Part shown: in pieces, positions 11,472 to 17,479 of the stretch | How positions within the stretch are numbered: position 1 is the stretch's first letter | Layout of the letters: every line of letters starts with the position of its first letter | Source of the DNA: Methanolobus mangrovi | Lineage (GTDB): Archaea > Halobacteriota > Methanosarcinia > Methanosarcinales > Methanosarcinaceae | Length of the DNA stretch: 64,000 bases | NCBI RefSeq assembly: GCF_031312535.1 | Contig: NZ_CP133594.1 | Location: forward strand, 1,116,001 to 1,180,000 | Reading direction: 5' to 3' | Made by a program: the position numbers and the translations under genes | Notes under the pieces: generated by a model | Seen by the model: only the letters and a program-made list of their open reading frames with translations | Told to the model about the DNA's origin: nothing | Database searches by the model: none

Positions 11472-12104
11472 ACGGACAACATTGCATTTTTGATATACTC
11501 GTTCAGCTCCCTTTTTGCCATAGTCAGTCCAGTTGGTGGAGTTATCACATTCGTCTCACTGACAAGTGACATAACACTGGAAGAGAAGAATGTACTTGCC
11601 ACAAAATCCGTAATCCTTGCCTGCATAATTGCCTTATTTTTTGCAATATCAGGAGAAATGATATTAAACTTCTTCGGTGTGAGCATTGATGCTTTAAGAG
11701 TAGCTGGCGGAATACTGCTTTTTACTGTGGCTTTTGATATGATACTGGCAAAGGTTTCCCGTGAAAGTATCACAAAAACAGAAATAACCAAATCACAGGA
11801 CCGTAGCGATATATGGATATTCCCTATTGGCCTTCCACTTTTAACAGGCCCGGGTACAATTACCACCGTTATTGTCCTAATGGGAAGTGCAGTTTCAATA
11901 TTACAAAACATTGCAGTCATGTTTGCGATACTGCTCACCTTTTTAATAACATTGATTTTATTTAGGTTTTCCAGAAGAGTGTATAAATTCCTTGGCCATA
12001 CCGGAATGCTGGTATTTACAAGACTTATGGGATTGTTGCTTGCAGCAATGGCTGTAAATTTCATTGCACTTGGAATATGGAATATTTATACCTCATTCCA
12101 GTGA
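11472..12104 (+). CDS. MarC/NAAT family integral membrane protein with apparent ACG start
   Basis: About 210 residues, six predicted transmembrane helices, matching the MarC (UPF0056) family of inner-membrane proteins of unclear transport role. Family features seen: SLFAIVSPVGGVITF near the N-terminus, FPIGLPLLTGPGTITT in the middle and RLMGLLLAAMAVNFI at the end. A strong GGGGAGG (11458-11464) stands seven bases before codon 11472, but that codon is ACG, not ATG; the residues it would start, (M)DNIAFLIYSF, look like the normal family N-terminus. The alternative is TTG at 11490, which has no ribosome-binding site at a useful distance and would clip the first helix. Non-canonical initiation, a point mutation or a sequence error are all possible. 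Confidence 0.85.
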   Translation, partial: TDNIAFLIYSFSSLFAIVSPVGGVITFVSLTSDITLEEKNVLATKSVILACIIALFFAISGEMILNFFGVSIDALRVAGGILLFTVAFDMILAKVSRESITKTEITKSQDRSDIWIFPIGLPLLTGPGTITTVIVLMGSAVSILQNIAVMFAILLTFLITLILFRFSRRVYKFLGHTGMLVFTRLMGLLLAAMAVNFIALGIWNIYTSFQ

Positions 12105-12177: not shown

Positions 12178-14904
12178 GTGGGTGACAAAGTGCCGGAAGA
12201 AAGGGACTTTCAATGTCGATCCAGAGGGGACGAACATAACATTTCACTGGAGCAGATTCTTGAAAAACTTGCTGCATCAGCTGAAGGCTTGTCTTCTGAA
12301 GAGGCAAGCAGAAGGATTGGTCTTTGTGGAAGGAACGTTTTCGAGGAAACCGGAAAACAAAGTCTTCTTATCAAATACTTAAAACAATACAGGAATTTCT
12401 TCTCACTTTTACTTTTATTTGGTTCCATACTTTCATTCATTGCTGAATGGCTTGACCCCGGACAGGGCAATATTTTCATTGCCATAGCACTACTTGGAGT
12501 GGTTATACTCAACGGCAGTTTTACATTCATTCAGGAATACCAGGCCGAAAGGATAATGGCGAGTTTCAAGAACCTCATTCCTCCAAAAGCCCGGGTACTG
12601 AGGGATGGAGAGATCAAAGAGATACTTGCCACCGAAATAGTGGTGGGTGATGTGGTCTATCTTGAGGAAGGTGACAAGATACCTGCAGATGGCAGGCTCA
12701 TAGAAGAGAACTCACTGAAAGTTGACAACTCACCAATAACCGGAGAAGCTGAACCACAACTACGTTCATTGAACTGTACGCATCCCAATATGCTGGAATG
12801 CAGGAACATGGTATTCTCAGGAACACTTGTCCAGACAGGAAATGGAAAAGCACTCATCTTTGGCACCGGTTCGGATACACAGATAGGAAAGCTTGCAGCC
12901 CTGACAGAACAGACATCTTCCGTGGACACACCCATACGCAAGGAACTCAATGACTTTATAAAGGTCATTTCTGCAATTGCTATATTTCTTGGAGTTTCCT
13001 TCTTCCTTGTAGGATTCCTCATTCAGGATACATTCCTTGCAAATCTCATTTTCGCTATTGGTATCATCGTTGCAAATGTACCTGAAGGACTACTGCCAAC
13101 GGTAACGCTTGCCCTGAGTCTCGCATCGAAAAGAATGGCAAAAAGGAATGCACTGATCAAACAACTGGAATCAGTTGAAACACTTGGTTCCACAACTGTC
13201 ATCTGTACAGATAAAACAGGAACCCTTACACAGAACAAGATGGCTATTCATTCAGTTTACACAGGTTCAGGCCATCTGGATGTAGAGAAAAAGGCCAACC
13301 CATCCGATGTATTTCTGCGTGTGGCTACCATATGTAATAATTCCAGACTTACAGAAGAAAAACCGGGATACAAAGGTGATCCTACTGAAGGCTCTTTGCT
13401 TGTTTATGCCAGTGAATTCACCGACATAAATAAAATGAAGGATGAATTTCCCCGGCTTGCAGAATATCCTTTCGATTCCAAAAAACAGAGGATGCAGGTT
13501 ATCTCCAAAACACCAACCGGAGAGATGGAAGCATACCTGAAAGGAGCACCTGAAGTTATTATCGATATGTGCAGCCACATAATGATTGATGGGATAGAAG
13601 AGATACTTGACGAAGTAGAAAAAAAATCCCTTGACGAACAACACCTTGTAATGGCAAAAAAAGGGGAAAGAGTACTTGCATTTGCTTACAGGAAAGCAGA
13701 TAGCGATAACGAATATGACGATGGTTTTATCTTCATTGCTTTTGCAGGTGCCGTAGACCCTCCACGACCGGAAGCAAAAGAAGCCATCAAAAAATGCCAC
13801 CTTGCAGGTATCAAGGTTGTTATGATAACAGGAGATCATCCGGTAACCGCACGTTCCATCGCTGAAACCGTAGGCCTTACCGACGATCACATTGAACCTG
13901 TCCTGATAACCGGTTCAGAACTTGAAGAGCTTTCGACAGAAGAGCTTGCACAACGACTGAAAGCTCCAAGCATTGTATTTGCACGCACATCCCCTATACA
14001 GAAACTCAAGATAGTACGTGCTTTCCAGGCGGCAGGCGAAATCGTTACAATGACTGGAGACGGTGTGAATGATGCACCTGCCATGAAGAATGCAGATATG
14101 GGGGTTGCCATGGGAAGCGGTACGGACGTTGCAAGGGAAGCAGCGGACATGGTACTGCTCGATGATAATTTTGCTACCATCGTCAATGCAATAGAAGAAG
14201 GCAGAACCGTCTTTGATAACATCAAGAAGTTCATAGCCTACATTCTTACAAGCAATGTCCCTGAAATATTACCATTCATAGCTTTTGTGCTGCTTGCATT
14301 GCCTCTGCCAATGAACGTGCAACTCATCCTTGCCATTGACCTGGGAACTGACATTCTCCCGGCGTTGTCCCTTGCAGTGGAAAAAGGAGAAGGCGATATT
14401 ATGAAACGTCCCCCACGCTCAAGGGAAGAGAAACTGCTTACACCACAGGTACTGCTAACGTCCTACGGAATCAAGGGACCTATAGAAGCTGCTGCCGGAT
14501 TTGCATGCTACTTTGCAGTGCTTTTCGATGGTGGGTGGAAATGGGGACAGCAACTGCCATTCACGGATACTCTTTACATGCAGGCCATAACAGCATTCTT
14601 TGCAGCCGTTATTGTCTGCCAGATAGCAAACGTTTTCACATCAAGGACCAGAAGACAATCCGTATTGACAAAAGGATTTTTCAGCAACCGCATGGTTCTT
14701 CTCGGTATAGCCAGCGAGCTTCTCATACTGGCTTTCATCATCTACAACCCACTGGTGAACCTTGTATTCAATACAGCAGCAATATCCATGAAATATGTAC
14801 TTATTGCAGTGCCATTTGCCCTGCTGCTGCTTGGAGTCGATGAGTTCAGAAAGTATGCAATAAGGAAAGACTCACCCTTTGTCACCCGTTTCTTCAAATG
14901 GTGA
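12178..14904 (+). CDS. P-type cation ATPase, subfamily IIC-like (Na,K-ATPase-related)
   Basis: A 908-residue ATP-driven cation pump. Order: N-terminal cation-ATPase domain, M1-M2, actuator domain with TGEAE (TGES equivalent), M3-M4 with VANVPEGLL, phosphorylation site DKTGTLTQ (Asp345), nucleotide domain with KGAPE, hinge TGDGVNDAPA, and M5-M10. M4 PEGLL, M5 SNVPEILPF and M6 AIDLGTDILPALSLA keep the acidic residues that bind Na+/K+ in animal Na,K-ATPase, and DIMKRPPR follows M6 as in that group; Ca-ATPases would have PEGLP. Such archaeal relatives are known in methanogens. Start is uncertain: GTG at 12178, or GTG at 12190 with GGTGA close before it. No beta subunit gene nearby. Ion specificity is inference. 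Confidence 0.93.
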   Translation: MGDKVPEERDFQCRSRGDEHNISLEQILEKLAASAEGLSSEEASRRIGLCGRNVFEETGKQSLLIKYLKQYRNFFSLLLLFGSILSFIAEWLDPGQGNIFIAIALLGVVILNGSFTFIQEYQAERIMASFKNLIPPKARVLRDGEIKEILATEIVVGDVVYLEEGDKIPADGRLIEENSLKVDNSPITGEAEPQLRSLNCTHPNMLECRNMVFSGTLVQTGNGKALIFGTGSDTQIGKLAALTEQTSSVDTPIRKELNDFIKVISAIAIFLGVSFFLVGFLIQDTFLANLIFAIGIIVANVPEGLLPTVTLALSLASKRMAKRNALIKQLESVETLGSTTVICTDKTGTLTQNKMAIHSVYTGSGHLDVEKKANPSDVFLRVATICNNSRLTEEKPGYKGDPTEGSLLVYASEFTDINKMKDEFPRLAEYPFDSKKQRMQVISKTPTGEMEAYLKGAPEVIIDMCSHIMIDGIEEILDEVEKKSLDEQHLVMAKKGERVLAFAYRKADSDNEYDDGFIFIAFAGAVDPPRPEAKEAIKKCHLAGIKVVMITGDHPVTARSIAETVGLTDDHIEPVLITGSELEELSTEELAQRLKAPSIVFARTSPIQKLKIVRAFQAAGEIVTMTGDGVNDAPAMKNADMGVAMGSGTDVAREAADMVLLDDNFATIVNAIEEGRTVFDNIKKFIAYILTSNVPEILPFIAFVLLALPLPMNVQLILAIDLGTDILPALSLAVEKGEGDIMKRPPRSREEKLLTPQVLLTSYGIKGPIEAAAGFACYFAVLFDGGWKWGQQLPFTDTLYMQAITAFFAAVIVCQIANVFTSRTRRQSVLTKGFFSNRMVLLGIASELLILAFIIYNPLVNLVFNTAAISMKYVLIAVPFALLLLGVDEFRKYAIRKDSPFVTRFFKW

Positions 14905-14930
14905 TTATCGGGTGACCTTTATTCTTTCTT
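14881..14930 (+). terminator. Possible terminator between convergent genes
   Basis: GTCACCCG (14881-14888) pairs with CGGGTGAC (14909-14916) across the end of the ATPase gene, followed by a T-rich tract. The 20-nt loop is long, so this is a moderate candidate. Confidence 0.4.
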
Positions 14931-15812
14931 TTTCCGGAAAACCACTTCAGTATGAGGATATGCGATTTCCACATCATCAGAAACCCTTATACGGTCAAAT
15001 ATCTCTTTTGTGATCTTCGTGGAATACTCGTTTAACTGCCGGGCCGGAGAGAAATACTTTATATGGACATCCACCCCACTTGCCTGGAACTCAAGTCTTA
15101 TACGAGGATTTCCAGGACTAGTACTGATAATGCCTGCAAGATATTTTCGAGCTGCAAGATCAGCTATTTCAATTGCATGATCAAGATTGCTCTCATATGT
15201 CACATTCACTATCACACTGTCAAGAACAAAATCATTGTTTAAAGTGTAATTAATGATATTTTTCTCAAACAGCATCCAGTTGGGAACCATCACCACTCTA
15301 CCAGAGTTTTCCTCATCAATGATAAGACCACCAATCTCCATAACATGCACATGAGTCAGATTGATATCTACAACATCACCTTTCACATCACCTATTGTGA
15401 TCCTATCACCGATGTCAAATGGTCTTTTGGTTACCACCATAATCCAGGCAGCTATACCCGTCATCGGTTTCTGGAGAGCAAAACCGATAGCTGCTGAAAG
15501 CAGACCAAGGAATACACCAAATTCAGACCATGCATTAGAATATGAAAGAGCAGCGAATAGAATAATTATCAGGTAAAGTGAATACCTGAATAGCTGACTC
15601 ATTAATTTGATGTTGGAACTTTGTTTCTTCGTTTTAGCCTTGCGCAGGAGATTATTTTTCAGCACATCAATAACTATACTGATCAAAACAAGGATGATAA
15701 AGACTGCAAGAAGTCTCATCCCAAATGACAGTAATCGATCTACAGTAATAAAGTCCTGCAAATTAAGTAAAGTAATAATTTCCTGCAAATTAAGTCCCAT
15801 GAAATCATCCAT
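14919..15812 (-). CDS. MscS-family mechanosensitive channel
   Basis: About 297 residues. Two or three N-terminal hydrophobic helices (from LLSFGMRLLAVFIILVLISI) precede the MscS pore/beta core: the Gly/Ala-rich pore helix segment LGLLSAAIGFALQKPMTGIA, then RPFDIGDRITIGDVKGDVVDI, which is the family beta-domain signature, and a C-terminal alpha/beta domain. Such channels release solutes on hypo-osmotic shock. The ATG at 15812 is chosen over an upstream TTG at 15818. Neighbours on the same strand are a coiled-coil protein and a CNNM-type protein, possibly one transcription unit with a stress or ion theme. A second, different MscS lies at 23548. Confidence 0.92.
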   Translation of the reverse strand: MDDFMGLNLQEIITLLNLQDFITVDRLLSFGMRLLAVFIILVLISIVIDVLKNNLLRKAKTKKQSSNIKLMSQLFRYSLYLIIILFAALSYSNAWSEFGVFLGLLSAAIGFALQKPMTGIAAWIMVVTKRPFDIGDRITIGDVKGDVVDINLTHVHVMEIGGLIIDEENSGRVVMVPNWMLFEKNIINYTLNNDFVLDSVIVNVTYESNLDHAIEIADLAARKYLAGIISTSPGNPRIRLEFQASGVDVHIKYFSPARQLNEYSTKITKEIFDRIRVSDDVEIAYPHTEVVFRKKKE

Positions 15813-15845
15813 TGACAAATTAAATCAAAAAATGAAAGAGCATTG

Positions 15846-16367
15846 TCACTCTTTCTTCAGTAGTTTCTTAACCATTTGTTTTAAATCAGATGCCAGATCA
15901 TCTGCCTCATTTCCGGTTGCCTGAGCCAGTTCTTTGACTTTATCAGATATCTTGTCTACATCTTTTTTAATGTCTACAGATTTTACCGAAGAGGCTATTT
16001 TCTTAATGACATCCATGATATCTTCGGTGATCTTTGCAGCCTCATCACCTGTTGCATCAATGAGTGAATCTATTCCGGCATTCGCCCTGTCATAGTTCCT
16101 TCCAAGATTGATCTTCTCTGCAAGGATGTCCAGCTGTTCACCAAGCTCAGAAGACAGGCCCTTTGCTCCATCCCCGGTCTTTTTGGCAAGATCATCGATG
16201 CCTTCAAACAATTTATCCATGTCTTCACGAAGGTCTATGCTTTTTATATCATCTACAATGCCTTTTATTGATGATTTTACGCTAACAGCGATATTTTCTG
16301 CCTCATTGCCAGTCTTGTCAACTAGTTCATGTATCTCATTTCTAATTTTACGAATCGTTTCTTTCAC
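15846..16367 (-). CDS. Repetitive coiled-coil protein of unknown function
   Basis: A 173-residue, highly charged helical protein built from four units of about 40 residues, each containing a TGxxA-type signature: VDKTGNEAENIA, AKKTGDGAKGLS, IDATGDEAAKIT and AQATGNEADDLA. Between them are amphipathic helices such as VSVKSSIKGIVDDIKSIDL and ASSVKSVDIKKDVDKI, so the sequence also shows a two-fold pattern. No signal peptide or membrane span. The helical repeat style recalls phasin/apolipoprotein-like or YtxH-like proteins, but I recognise no family. It lies between MscS and DUF21 genes on the same strand; 34 nt separate it from mscS, suggesting co-transcription. Confidence 0.75.
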   Translation of the reverse strand: MKETIRKIRNEIHELVDKTGNEAENIAVSVKSSIKGIVDDIKSIDLREDMDKLFEGIDDLAKKTGDGAKGLSSELGEQLDILAEKINLGRNYDRANAGIDSLIDATGDEAAKITEDIMDVIKKIASSVKSVDIKKDVDKISDKVKELAQATGNEADDLASDLKQMVKKLLKKE

Positions 16368-16453: not shown

Positions 16454-17479
16454 TTATTCAACTCTGACAACTATCCCCCTAAGGAGGCGACCCAGTATAT
16501 CCGAACCTGTTATAATTATCTTTTCGGGATCATCCTTGTTCCAGTAAAGCAGAAGATCATTATCTATAACATCATCCTCAGAATCTACAGGATAAACCTT
16601 CAACTTGTGAAGTACACCACCAATCTTTTCTTCAGGATCCCTTACAATTATAGGATGATGGCAGTACTTATAGGGATTGAATTCTTTTTTTCTGTAGACG
16701 GCATCCCTGAGAAATGACCCGGAATCAATTGCCATCACTGGCTCGTTGGTTTCATCCACCACTATGACCCATTTCTTTGAACTTGAAGCAATATTTTCCA
16801 GCAACGTATCGAACTCAGCATCTTCAGATGATGGAAATATAACAAGGCCATTGAAAGTAGGCAGGGATATTATACTCAATGGGTCAATAACAGACCCTTC
16901 CTGCTTGACATGAAGATCATCTATGGTAAGGAAATTCAAAGCTCCAAGCCCTTCAAGGTGATCGATATCACTACTCTCGGAAATGATATGTTTTCTAAGC
17001 ATTATTCCAAGAGAACGTTCTTTGAAGAACTCCATTTTCTCTTTCCCAAGCCACGTATCCAGAATTATTGCAGACGGTTTTGCCACGGGATACAGCAAGA
17101 ACATGTATAATTTGACAAGAGGGGAAAAAGTAGCTCCAAGTCGTAAGGAATTACGTGTGAAATAAGCCTGCGGAGCAATTTCTCCGAAACTTGTGATAAG
17201 AACTGTGGAAAAAATAAAAGCTGATGCTCCAGACATTATAGAATCAGTCAGCAATGCCAGAAGAACATTTATACCAACATTACCCCATAGTAAAGTAGAG
17301 AGCAGCAGGTGGGAATTACGCCTTATTTCCAGTATTTTCCTTGCATCCTCATTCTTAGCTTCAGCCTCTATTTCAAGACGAAGACGGGTCAGTCCGAACA
17401 TGCCTATGGTCAGTCCGGAAAATATACCGGATTGAAGCAGGCAGAGAGCTATCAAAAACCATGTTATTATGTTATTCAT
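16454..17479 (-). CDS. CNNM/CorC-type protein: DUF21 membrane domain plus CBS-like domain
   Basis: A 341-residue membrane protein. Residues 1-170 match the DUF21 (CNNM transmembrane) domain: the opening FSGLTIGMFGL, the helix LRLEIEAEAKNEDARKI, then HLLLSTLLWGNVGINVLLA and SFGEIAPQAYF. The remaining half has the DPLSIISLPTF and WVIVVDETNEP segments of a CBS-pair region. CNNM/CorC relatives are linked to Mg2+ and other divalent ion transport. The family is usually longer (C-terminal CorC_HlyC domain), which is absent. Start ATG at 17479 is at the edge of a divergent promoter region facing the glycogen cluster. Role as ion exporter is inferred from the family. Confidence 0.88.
   Translation of the reverse strand: MNNIITWFLIALCLLQSGIFSGLTIGMFGLTRLRLEIEAEAKNEDARKILEIRRNSHLLLSTLLWGNVGINVLLALLTDSIMSGASAFIFSTVLITSFGEIAPQAYFTRNSLRLGATFSPLVKLYMFLLYPVAKPSAIILDTWLGKEKMEFFKERSLGIMLRKHIISESSDIDHLEGLGALNFLTIDDLHVKQEGSVIDPLSIISLPTFNGLVIFPSSEDAEFDTLLENIASSSKKWVIVVDETNEPVMAIDSGSFLRDAVYRKKEFNPYKYCHHPIIVRDPEEKIGGVLHKLKVYPVDSEDDVIDNDLLLYWNKDDPEKIIITGSDILGRLLRGIVVRVE

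Follow-up and report, generated by a model that had tools for sequence, protein, structure and literature searches.

The window analysed here is a stretch of 64,000 nucleotides from the archaeon Methanolobus mangrovi (contig NZ_CP133594.1, positions 1,116,001 to 1,180,000 of the forward strand). At positions 12178 to 14904 it encodes a P-type ATPase of subfamily IIC (P2C), the subfamily of the animal Na,K-ATPase. Ion sites I and II of this pump are those of the Na,K-ATPase with one exception, whereas its sodium site III is remodelled. We propose, with a little less than even confidence, that the site III carboxylate of prokaryotic P2C ATPases alternates between the membrane segments M7 (Glu854) and M8 (Asp926), and that it would be locked by a lysine in the Methanosarcinaceae, giving an electroneutral 2Na+:2K+ pump. 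Membership of the family is in itself little of a discovery; the remodelling of site III is the part worth following.

The open reading frame has the same coordinates as in the original prediction, a reading of this DNA made from the sequence alone. Its features are listed below, with Na,K-ATPase residues numbered according to the pig enzyme (checked at 13 residues) and with conservation referring to alignment A1, which comprises 34 sequences drawn from 46 loci and from loci found by genome profile searches.

12178 to 14904, + strand: IIC (P2C) P-type ATPase open reading frame, 908 amino acids, with GTG as the predicted start codon
13069 to 13095, + strand: M4, VANVPEGLL; V322, A323, V325 and E327 of Na,K-ATPase retained
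13210 to 13212, + strand: D345, phosphorylated Asp of DKTGT
14239 to 14277, + strand: M5, YILTSNVPEILPF; Y771, S775, N776, P778 and E779 retained, T772 replaced by Ile
14338 to 14376, + strand: M6, DLGTDILPALSLA; D804, T807 and D808 retained
14395 to 14418, + strand: DIMKRPPR motif after M6
14473 to 14475, + strand: K766 in M7, aligned with I850 of Na,K-ATPase and preceding E770 by four residues
14485 to 14487, + strand: E770 in M7, occupying the position of the site III Gln (Q854)
14620 to 14643, + strand: M8, QIANVFTS; Q923 retained, W924 replaced by Ile816, D926 by Asn818 and C930 by Ser822
14716 to 14718, + strand: E847 in M9 (E954 of Na,K-ATPase), retained
14899 to 14901, + strand: C-terminal Trp908; Trp in 33 of the 34 rows of A1

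Among the NCBIfam models the IIC model TIGR01106 matches the pump best (760.5 bits, E = 2.5e-228), 124 bits ahead of the second model, the PMR1-type IIA model TIGR01522 (636.2 bits). All 34 members of A1 match TIGR01106 as well, and the Pfam P-type ATPase domains in the pump exceed their cut-offs. The best match among solved structures is Na,K-ATPase with 674 bits, compared with 492 bits for the Listeria Ca-ATPase LMCA1; with the family profile the same comparison yields 948 versus 695 bits. An AlphaFold model of the pump (mean predicted local distance difference test score, pLDDT, 79.1; predicted template modelling score, pTM, 0.67) retrieves Na,K-ATPase first in Foldseek (E 1.4e-70). Aligned with this model by VIA-align, Na,K-ATPase reaches a Z score of 44.0 and gastric H,K-ATPase one of 43.9, and SPCA1 (36.4) and SERCA (35.7) lie lower. 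Since Z is 43 to 44 for both Na,K- and H,K-ATPase, the fold alone cannot tell these two apart.

Furthermore, the phylogenetic position of the pump was determined. The input excluded near-duplicates, proteins shorter than 880 amino acids and sequences containing X or stops. In the resulting 39-row tree, a 19-row clade comprises the Methanosarcinaceae, seven DPANN or gammaproteobacterial proteins and two Na,K-ATPases (bootstrap/Shimodaira-Hasegawa-like approximate likelihood ratio test, SH-aLRT, 100/100), so that DPANN and some bacterial P2C ATPases are sister groups within the clade that the pump shares with Na,K-ATPase. This clade nests in a 28-row IIC-like clade (100/100), separate from the 11 IIA rows (100/100). 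In constrained trees the union of Na,K-ATPase with the DPANN proteins was not rejected (P value of 0.243 in the approximately unbiased test, p-AU), and its union with the Methanosarcinaceae gave a borderline p-AU of 0.043. As the Na,K-ATPase references are vertebrate-type only and sit on a long branch, the tree places the origin of the animal pump only approximately.

Thus, the pump belongs to the subfamily IIC (P2C) P-type ATPases, as the original prediction had deduced. That it might instead be a IIA Ca2+-ATPase with a chance likeness to IIC is hardly credible. The 636 bits scored by IIA models would speak for this, as type II ATPases all cross-match, but the IIC profile and the structure matches lie well ahead, and a forced union of ten Methanosarcinaceae with the 11 IIA rows was rejected (p-AU 0.000786). 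The host genome, a single contig of 2.62 Mb, moreover encodes three Cation_ATPase_C proteins, namely the pump and two further type II ATPases, both of which NCBIfam assigns first to IIA2 (712 and 650 bits).

A second, distant IIC-like group was observed in genomes of the same phylum (L109 and L113 to L123; about 940 to 1006 bits with the A1 profile). Its M6 reads IDLGSD or IDLGTD, it carries Glu854/Asn926 except for L116 (Gln854), and for the members scanned NCBIfam places IIA2 slightly above IIC.

At sites I and II the side chains E327, S775, N776, E779, D804 and D808 are identical to those of Na,K-ATPase, and V322, A323, V325, Y771 and T807 are equal as well. The sole mismatch is T772, replaced by Ile throughout the 34 rows of A1. 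For a broader view, 128 IIC rows were compared, of which 126 are prokaryotic and two are Na,K-ATPases; these rows are related and unevenly sampled. S775, N776, E779, D804 and D808 read SNEDD in 115 of them. Within A1, E779 is changed to Gln in five of the 34 rows and S775-N776 to His-Thr in two. A change of this kind at sites I/II, with HT for SN in M5 (S775 to His, N776 to Thr), was noted in three Methanosarcina records (L032, L039 and L043).

The departures from Na,K-ATPase are found at site III. M7 and M8 align to Na,K-ATPase without gaps; Q923 and E954 are retained, Q854, W924 and D926 are all replaced, and the M8 stretch that was read is devoid of acidic residues. A site III that merely lacks its carboxylate was considered and dropped, since the M7 column has Glu at the position of Q854. 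The original prediction had credited the protein with the residues that animal Na,K-ATPase has at its ion sites, which holds for sites I and II apart from T772 and does not hold for site III. The motifs it quoted, VPEGLL in M4, those in M5 and M6 and DIMKRPPR, are all present; they cover M4 to M6, and the departures K766, E770, I816 and N818 sit outside them in M7 to M9. The structural alignment extends as far as Trp908 on one side and the final residue of Na,K-ATPase on the other. In the latter enzyme the C-terminal tyrosines cap a water cavity leading to site III (PMC9463140), and the terminal Trp of the pump may by analogy play this capping part.

The site III pattern was then followed through the 128 IIC rows. 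The first 78 (with the second Na,K-ATPase) had been kept only if they carried Q923, E/Q954 and D804, and seven duplicates had been dropped. Conservation of these three columns is therefore partly the result of selection. The other 50 rows are unfiltered and represent 50 of at least 151 matches from the phylum of a Nitrospiraceae record. Positions 854/926 read Glu/Asn in 101 rows, Gln/Asp in 15, Gln/Asn in ten and Ser/Asn in two, and Glu/Asp in none. Trp924 is confined to the two Na,K-ATPases (0 of the 126 prokaryotic rows). Lys850 is found in 35 rows, which make up precisely the Methanosarcinaceae clade; the 93 others lack it, and the tree shows a single change at this position. Asp926 occurs in 13 prokaryotic rows (DPANN, one gammaproteobacterium, one of the Nitrospiraceae record, L143), all of which have Gln854 and no Lys850, unlike the pump. 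On a tree with these columns masked, five changes each were counted at 854 and at 926. Thus, the mutual exclusion of Glu854 and Asp926 is complete in the rows read, yet rests on few independent events. For members left out of the tree, M8 was read by pattern at 27 loci, 25 of which matched (L041 and L049 did not); it has Asn in the Methanosarcinaceae and Asp in L027, L028, L036 and L046.

Several published observations bear on what these exchanges might mean for transport. Gln873 on M7, which corresponds to Q854 by a constant offset of 19, coordinates site III (PMC9463140). Changing the site III Asp to Asn in the alpha-3 Na,K-ATPase lowers the Na+ affinity more than 100-fold and leaves the K+ affinity unchanged (PMC9463140), and in simulations of D926N the Na+ selectivity is lost at sites II and III (PMC5026471). 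In the non-gastric H,K-ATPase, Asp945 (equivalent to D926) is neutralised by a salt bridge to Arg949 four residues further on, and a Trp at position 924 is essential to create site III in this background (PMC9463140).

By analogy, the pump would work as a single chain driven by ATP, most likely moving Na+ out and K+ in through an E1/E2 cycle with phosphorylation at D345, and would need no beta subunit. Sites I and II resemble those of Na,K-ATPase in their construction. The carboxylate of site III has been relocated from M8 to M7 (D926 to Asn, Q854 to Glu), and the supporting Trp924 is replaced by Ile as in the H,K-ATPases. Lys766, one helix turn (i-4) before Glu770, could pair with it in the way Arg949 pairs with Asp945. 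Such a pair would disable the third Na+ site, and a disabled site III would in turn imply an exchange of 2 Na+ for 2 K+ per ATP with no net charge. A beta-less single-chain P2C pump of this type, with site III disabled and electroneutral 2Na+:2K+ exchange, is in our view close to an even proposition. A part in salt adaptation, as put forward in the original prediction, is a candidate role of the pump.

Several points weigh against such an electroneutral pump. For transport, that is for the ions, their direction and the stoichiometry, and for the Lys-Glu pair the argument relies on sequence and analogy. Five independent pairs available for the Glu/Asp exclusion gave two concordant cases, three without a difference and none opposite, which is not significant. 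The 760.5 bits of the pump lie below the curated TIGR01106 cut-off of 946.1 bits, which none of the 119 genomes of the order passes. As this cut-off defines the curated eukaryote-type subfamily, we file the pump as a member of the prokaryotic P2C branch, not as a Na,K-ATPase. The gene is absent from 39 of 100 Methanosarcinaceae genomes and is therefore not essential in this family. Furthermore, the closest engineered analogue, SPC-ngHKA (a non-gastric H,K-ATPase, ngHKA, with Ser, Pro, the Ile kept and Cys), carried leak currents and was not cleanly electroneutral (PMC9463140). Finally, only Y771 O, T774 O and Q923 are listed as X-ray ligands of site III (PMC5026471), and all three survive in the pump, where E770 together with Q815 and E847 could make a working mirror-image site III.

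The last point leads to a classical electrogenic 3Na+:2K+ pump in which the function of Asp926 on M8 passes to Glu770 on M7. We regard this as rather unlikely, though it is the main alternative. The two carboxylates replace one another in 116 of the 128 IIC rows and never occur together, as if one carboxylate were kept, and Q923, Y771 and E954 are retained. However, Ile occupies position 924, where no Trp is found in any prokaryotic row, and Lys850 stands beside the Glu in the Methanosarcinaceae clade only. A pump exchanging H+ for K+, or accepting H+ and Na+ alike, in the manner of the H,K-ATPases is a weaker candidate and in our judgement improbable. Gastric and non-gastric H,K-ATPases resemble the pump in having Ile for Trp924 and in placing a basic residue four positions, or one turn, from a site III carboxylate (Asp945-Arg949 on M8 compared with Glu770-Lys766 on M7), and the fold scores for H,K- and Na,K-ATPase are alike. 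In addition, ngHKA from which Lys794 was removed yields pumps activated by Na+ or H+ (PMC9463140). The H,K-ATPases nevertheless have a Lys in M5 where the pump has Ser692, as does Na,K-ATPase with S775, and they require a beta subunit.

A reversal of the pump in vivo, by which it would act as a Na+/K+-driven ATP synthase, has been speculated on for methanogens, which generate a primary Na+ gradient (PMC10654040). We consider this very improbable. With assumed ion levels, 2:2 exchange yields 25 to 32 kJ/mol ATP at any voltage and 3:2 exchange 37 to 55 kJ/mol; with site III disabled, too little driving force would remain for ATP synthesis. An electroneutral 2:2 pump would be a cheap means of accumulating K+ and could hardly be run backwards to make ATP. 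A rebuilt or disabled site III would alter the electrogenicity of the pump, its stoichiometry and the ATP-synthase mode proposed for it. It would also locate on the P2C tree the emergence of the electrogenic third Na+ site, the basis of animal membrane potentials. Should the electroneutral reading hold, the 3:2 electrogenic pump would have needed three changes at site III (Asp926, Gln854 and Trp924). Of these, Asp926 and Gln854 already exist in certain bacterial relatives and in DPANN, and Trp924 was seen in the animal sequences only.

Compared with the animal Na,K-ATPase alpha subunit, the pump shares the fold, the catalytic residues, the M4 to M6 residues of sites I and II, Q923 and E954; it differs in N926, E854, I924, K850 and I772, in its C-terminal Trp and in the lack of a beta subunit. 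The original prediction had noticed no beta-subunit gene nearby, and none exceeds the cut-off in the whole genome either (PF00287; the highest score, 12.7 bits, stays below the cut-off of 23.3 bits). The alpha/beta assembly motif SYGQ/E of the M7-M8 loop reads KWGQ in the pump, and bacterial and archaeal alpha-like proteins have been described as one group without this motif (PMC9609216). P2C pumps of methanogens have already been published (PMC10654040), and all tests made here assign the pump to them; archaeal homologues are also mentioned in PMC7911474. The 2023 review asks 'P2C ATPases: what do they do in archaea?', treats the matter as open and presumes the conservation of all three Na+ sites (PMC10654040). 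This statement fails at D926, W924 and Q854 in all 35 Methanosarcinaceae rows, and could hold if only the three X-ray ligands of site III are counted. In the open-licence PMC literature we found neither an assay of an archaeal P2C member nor any reference to the 854/926 exchange, which is weak evidence of novelty.

The distribution of the pump is wider than the original prediction, which took IIC to be known mainly from animals and a few archaea, had assumed. By profile score (E <= 1e-280) it is present in 61 of 100 Methanosarcinaceae genomes, 59 with more than 1400 bits and two divergent ones with about 1227 bits, and several near-complete genomes from the same genus as the window (G033, G112, G411 and G419) lack it. 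IIC-like profile scores were also obtained in 13 of 279 genomes from the phylum of a Woesearchaeota record, in 12 of 299 from that of a gammaproteobacterial record and in 151 of 345 from that of the Nitrospiraceae record. KdpB was not found in the host genome of the pump, which therefore holds no other known P-type K+ uptake pump that we could find. Among the 100 Methanosarcinaceae genomes TrkH occurs in 93 and KdpB in five; all five also carry the P2C pump, so that there is no sign of the latter replacing Kdp.

Some P2C genes of the family deserve separate mention. One Methanosarcinaceae genome carries two copies (G116:C2; 1625 and 1618 bits). In a Methanococcoides vulcani record and a genome of the same family (L045 and L058) the gene is broken by a change of frame near residue 126 and is possibly decaying. 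In genome G053 (L079 / L101) an otherwise open P2C gene has a single in-frame TAG at about codon 110, after TFIQEY. The Methanosarcinaceae include pyrrolysine users, and read-through of this TAG is possible.

The nearest named records are from Methanolobus and 81-90% identical. Two genes directly adjoin the pump:

11490 to 12104, + strand: MarC-family membrane protein, directly upstream, with a gap of 73 bases
14919 to 15818, - strand: MscS-like channel, convergent, directly downstream

MarC lies upstream of the pump in 16 of the 46 loci (Methanolobus, Methanomethylovorans and kin), and an MscS-like channel adjoins it in eight; we take both adjacencies as context only. In one locus (L009) tandem MarC-like stretches, at 2-310 and 476-1087, precede the pump. 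Across the 46 loci no neighbour family is common to all lineages that could be a conserved small partner of the pump, and an Rfam scan of the window for a riboswitch near the gene gave three tRNAs only. Further downstream, 15846-16367 (- strand) encodes a helical protein of 173 amino acids with a weak apolipoprotein- or syntaxin-type coiled-coil likeness below the Pfam cut-offs, which is present in five of the 46 loci. It is followed at 16454-17479 (- strand) by a CNNM-domain protein (Pfam PF01595, 113 bits), so that several ion- or osmo-related membrane genes are clustered near the pump.
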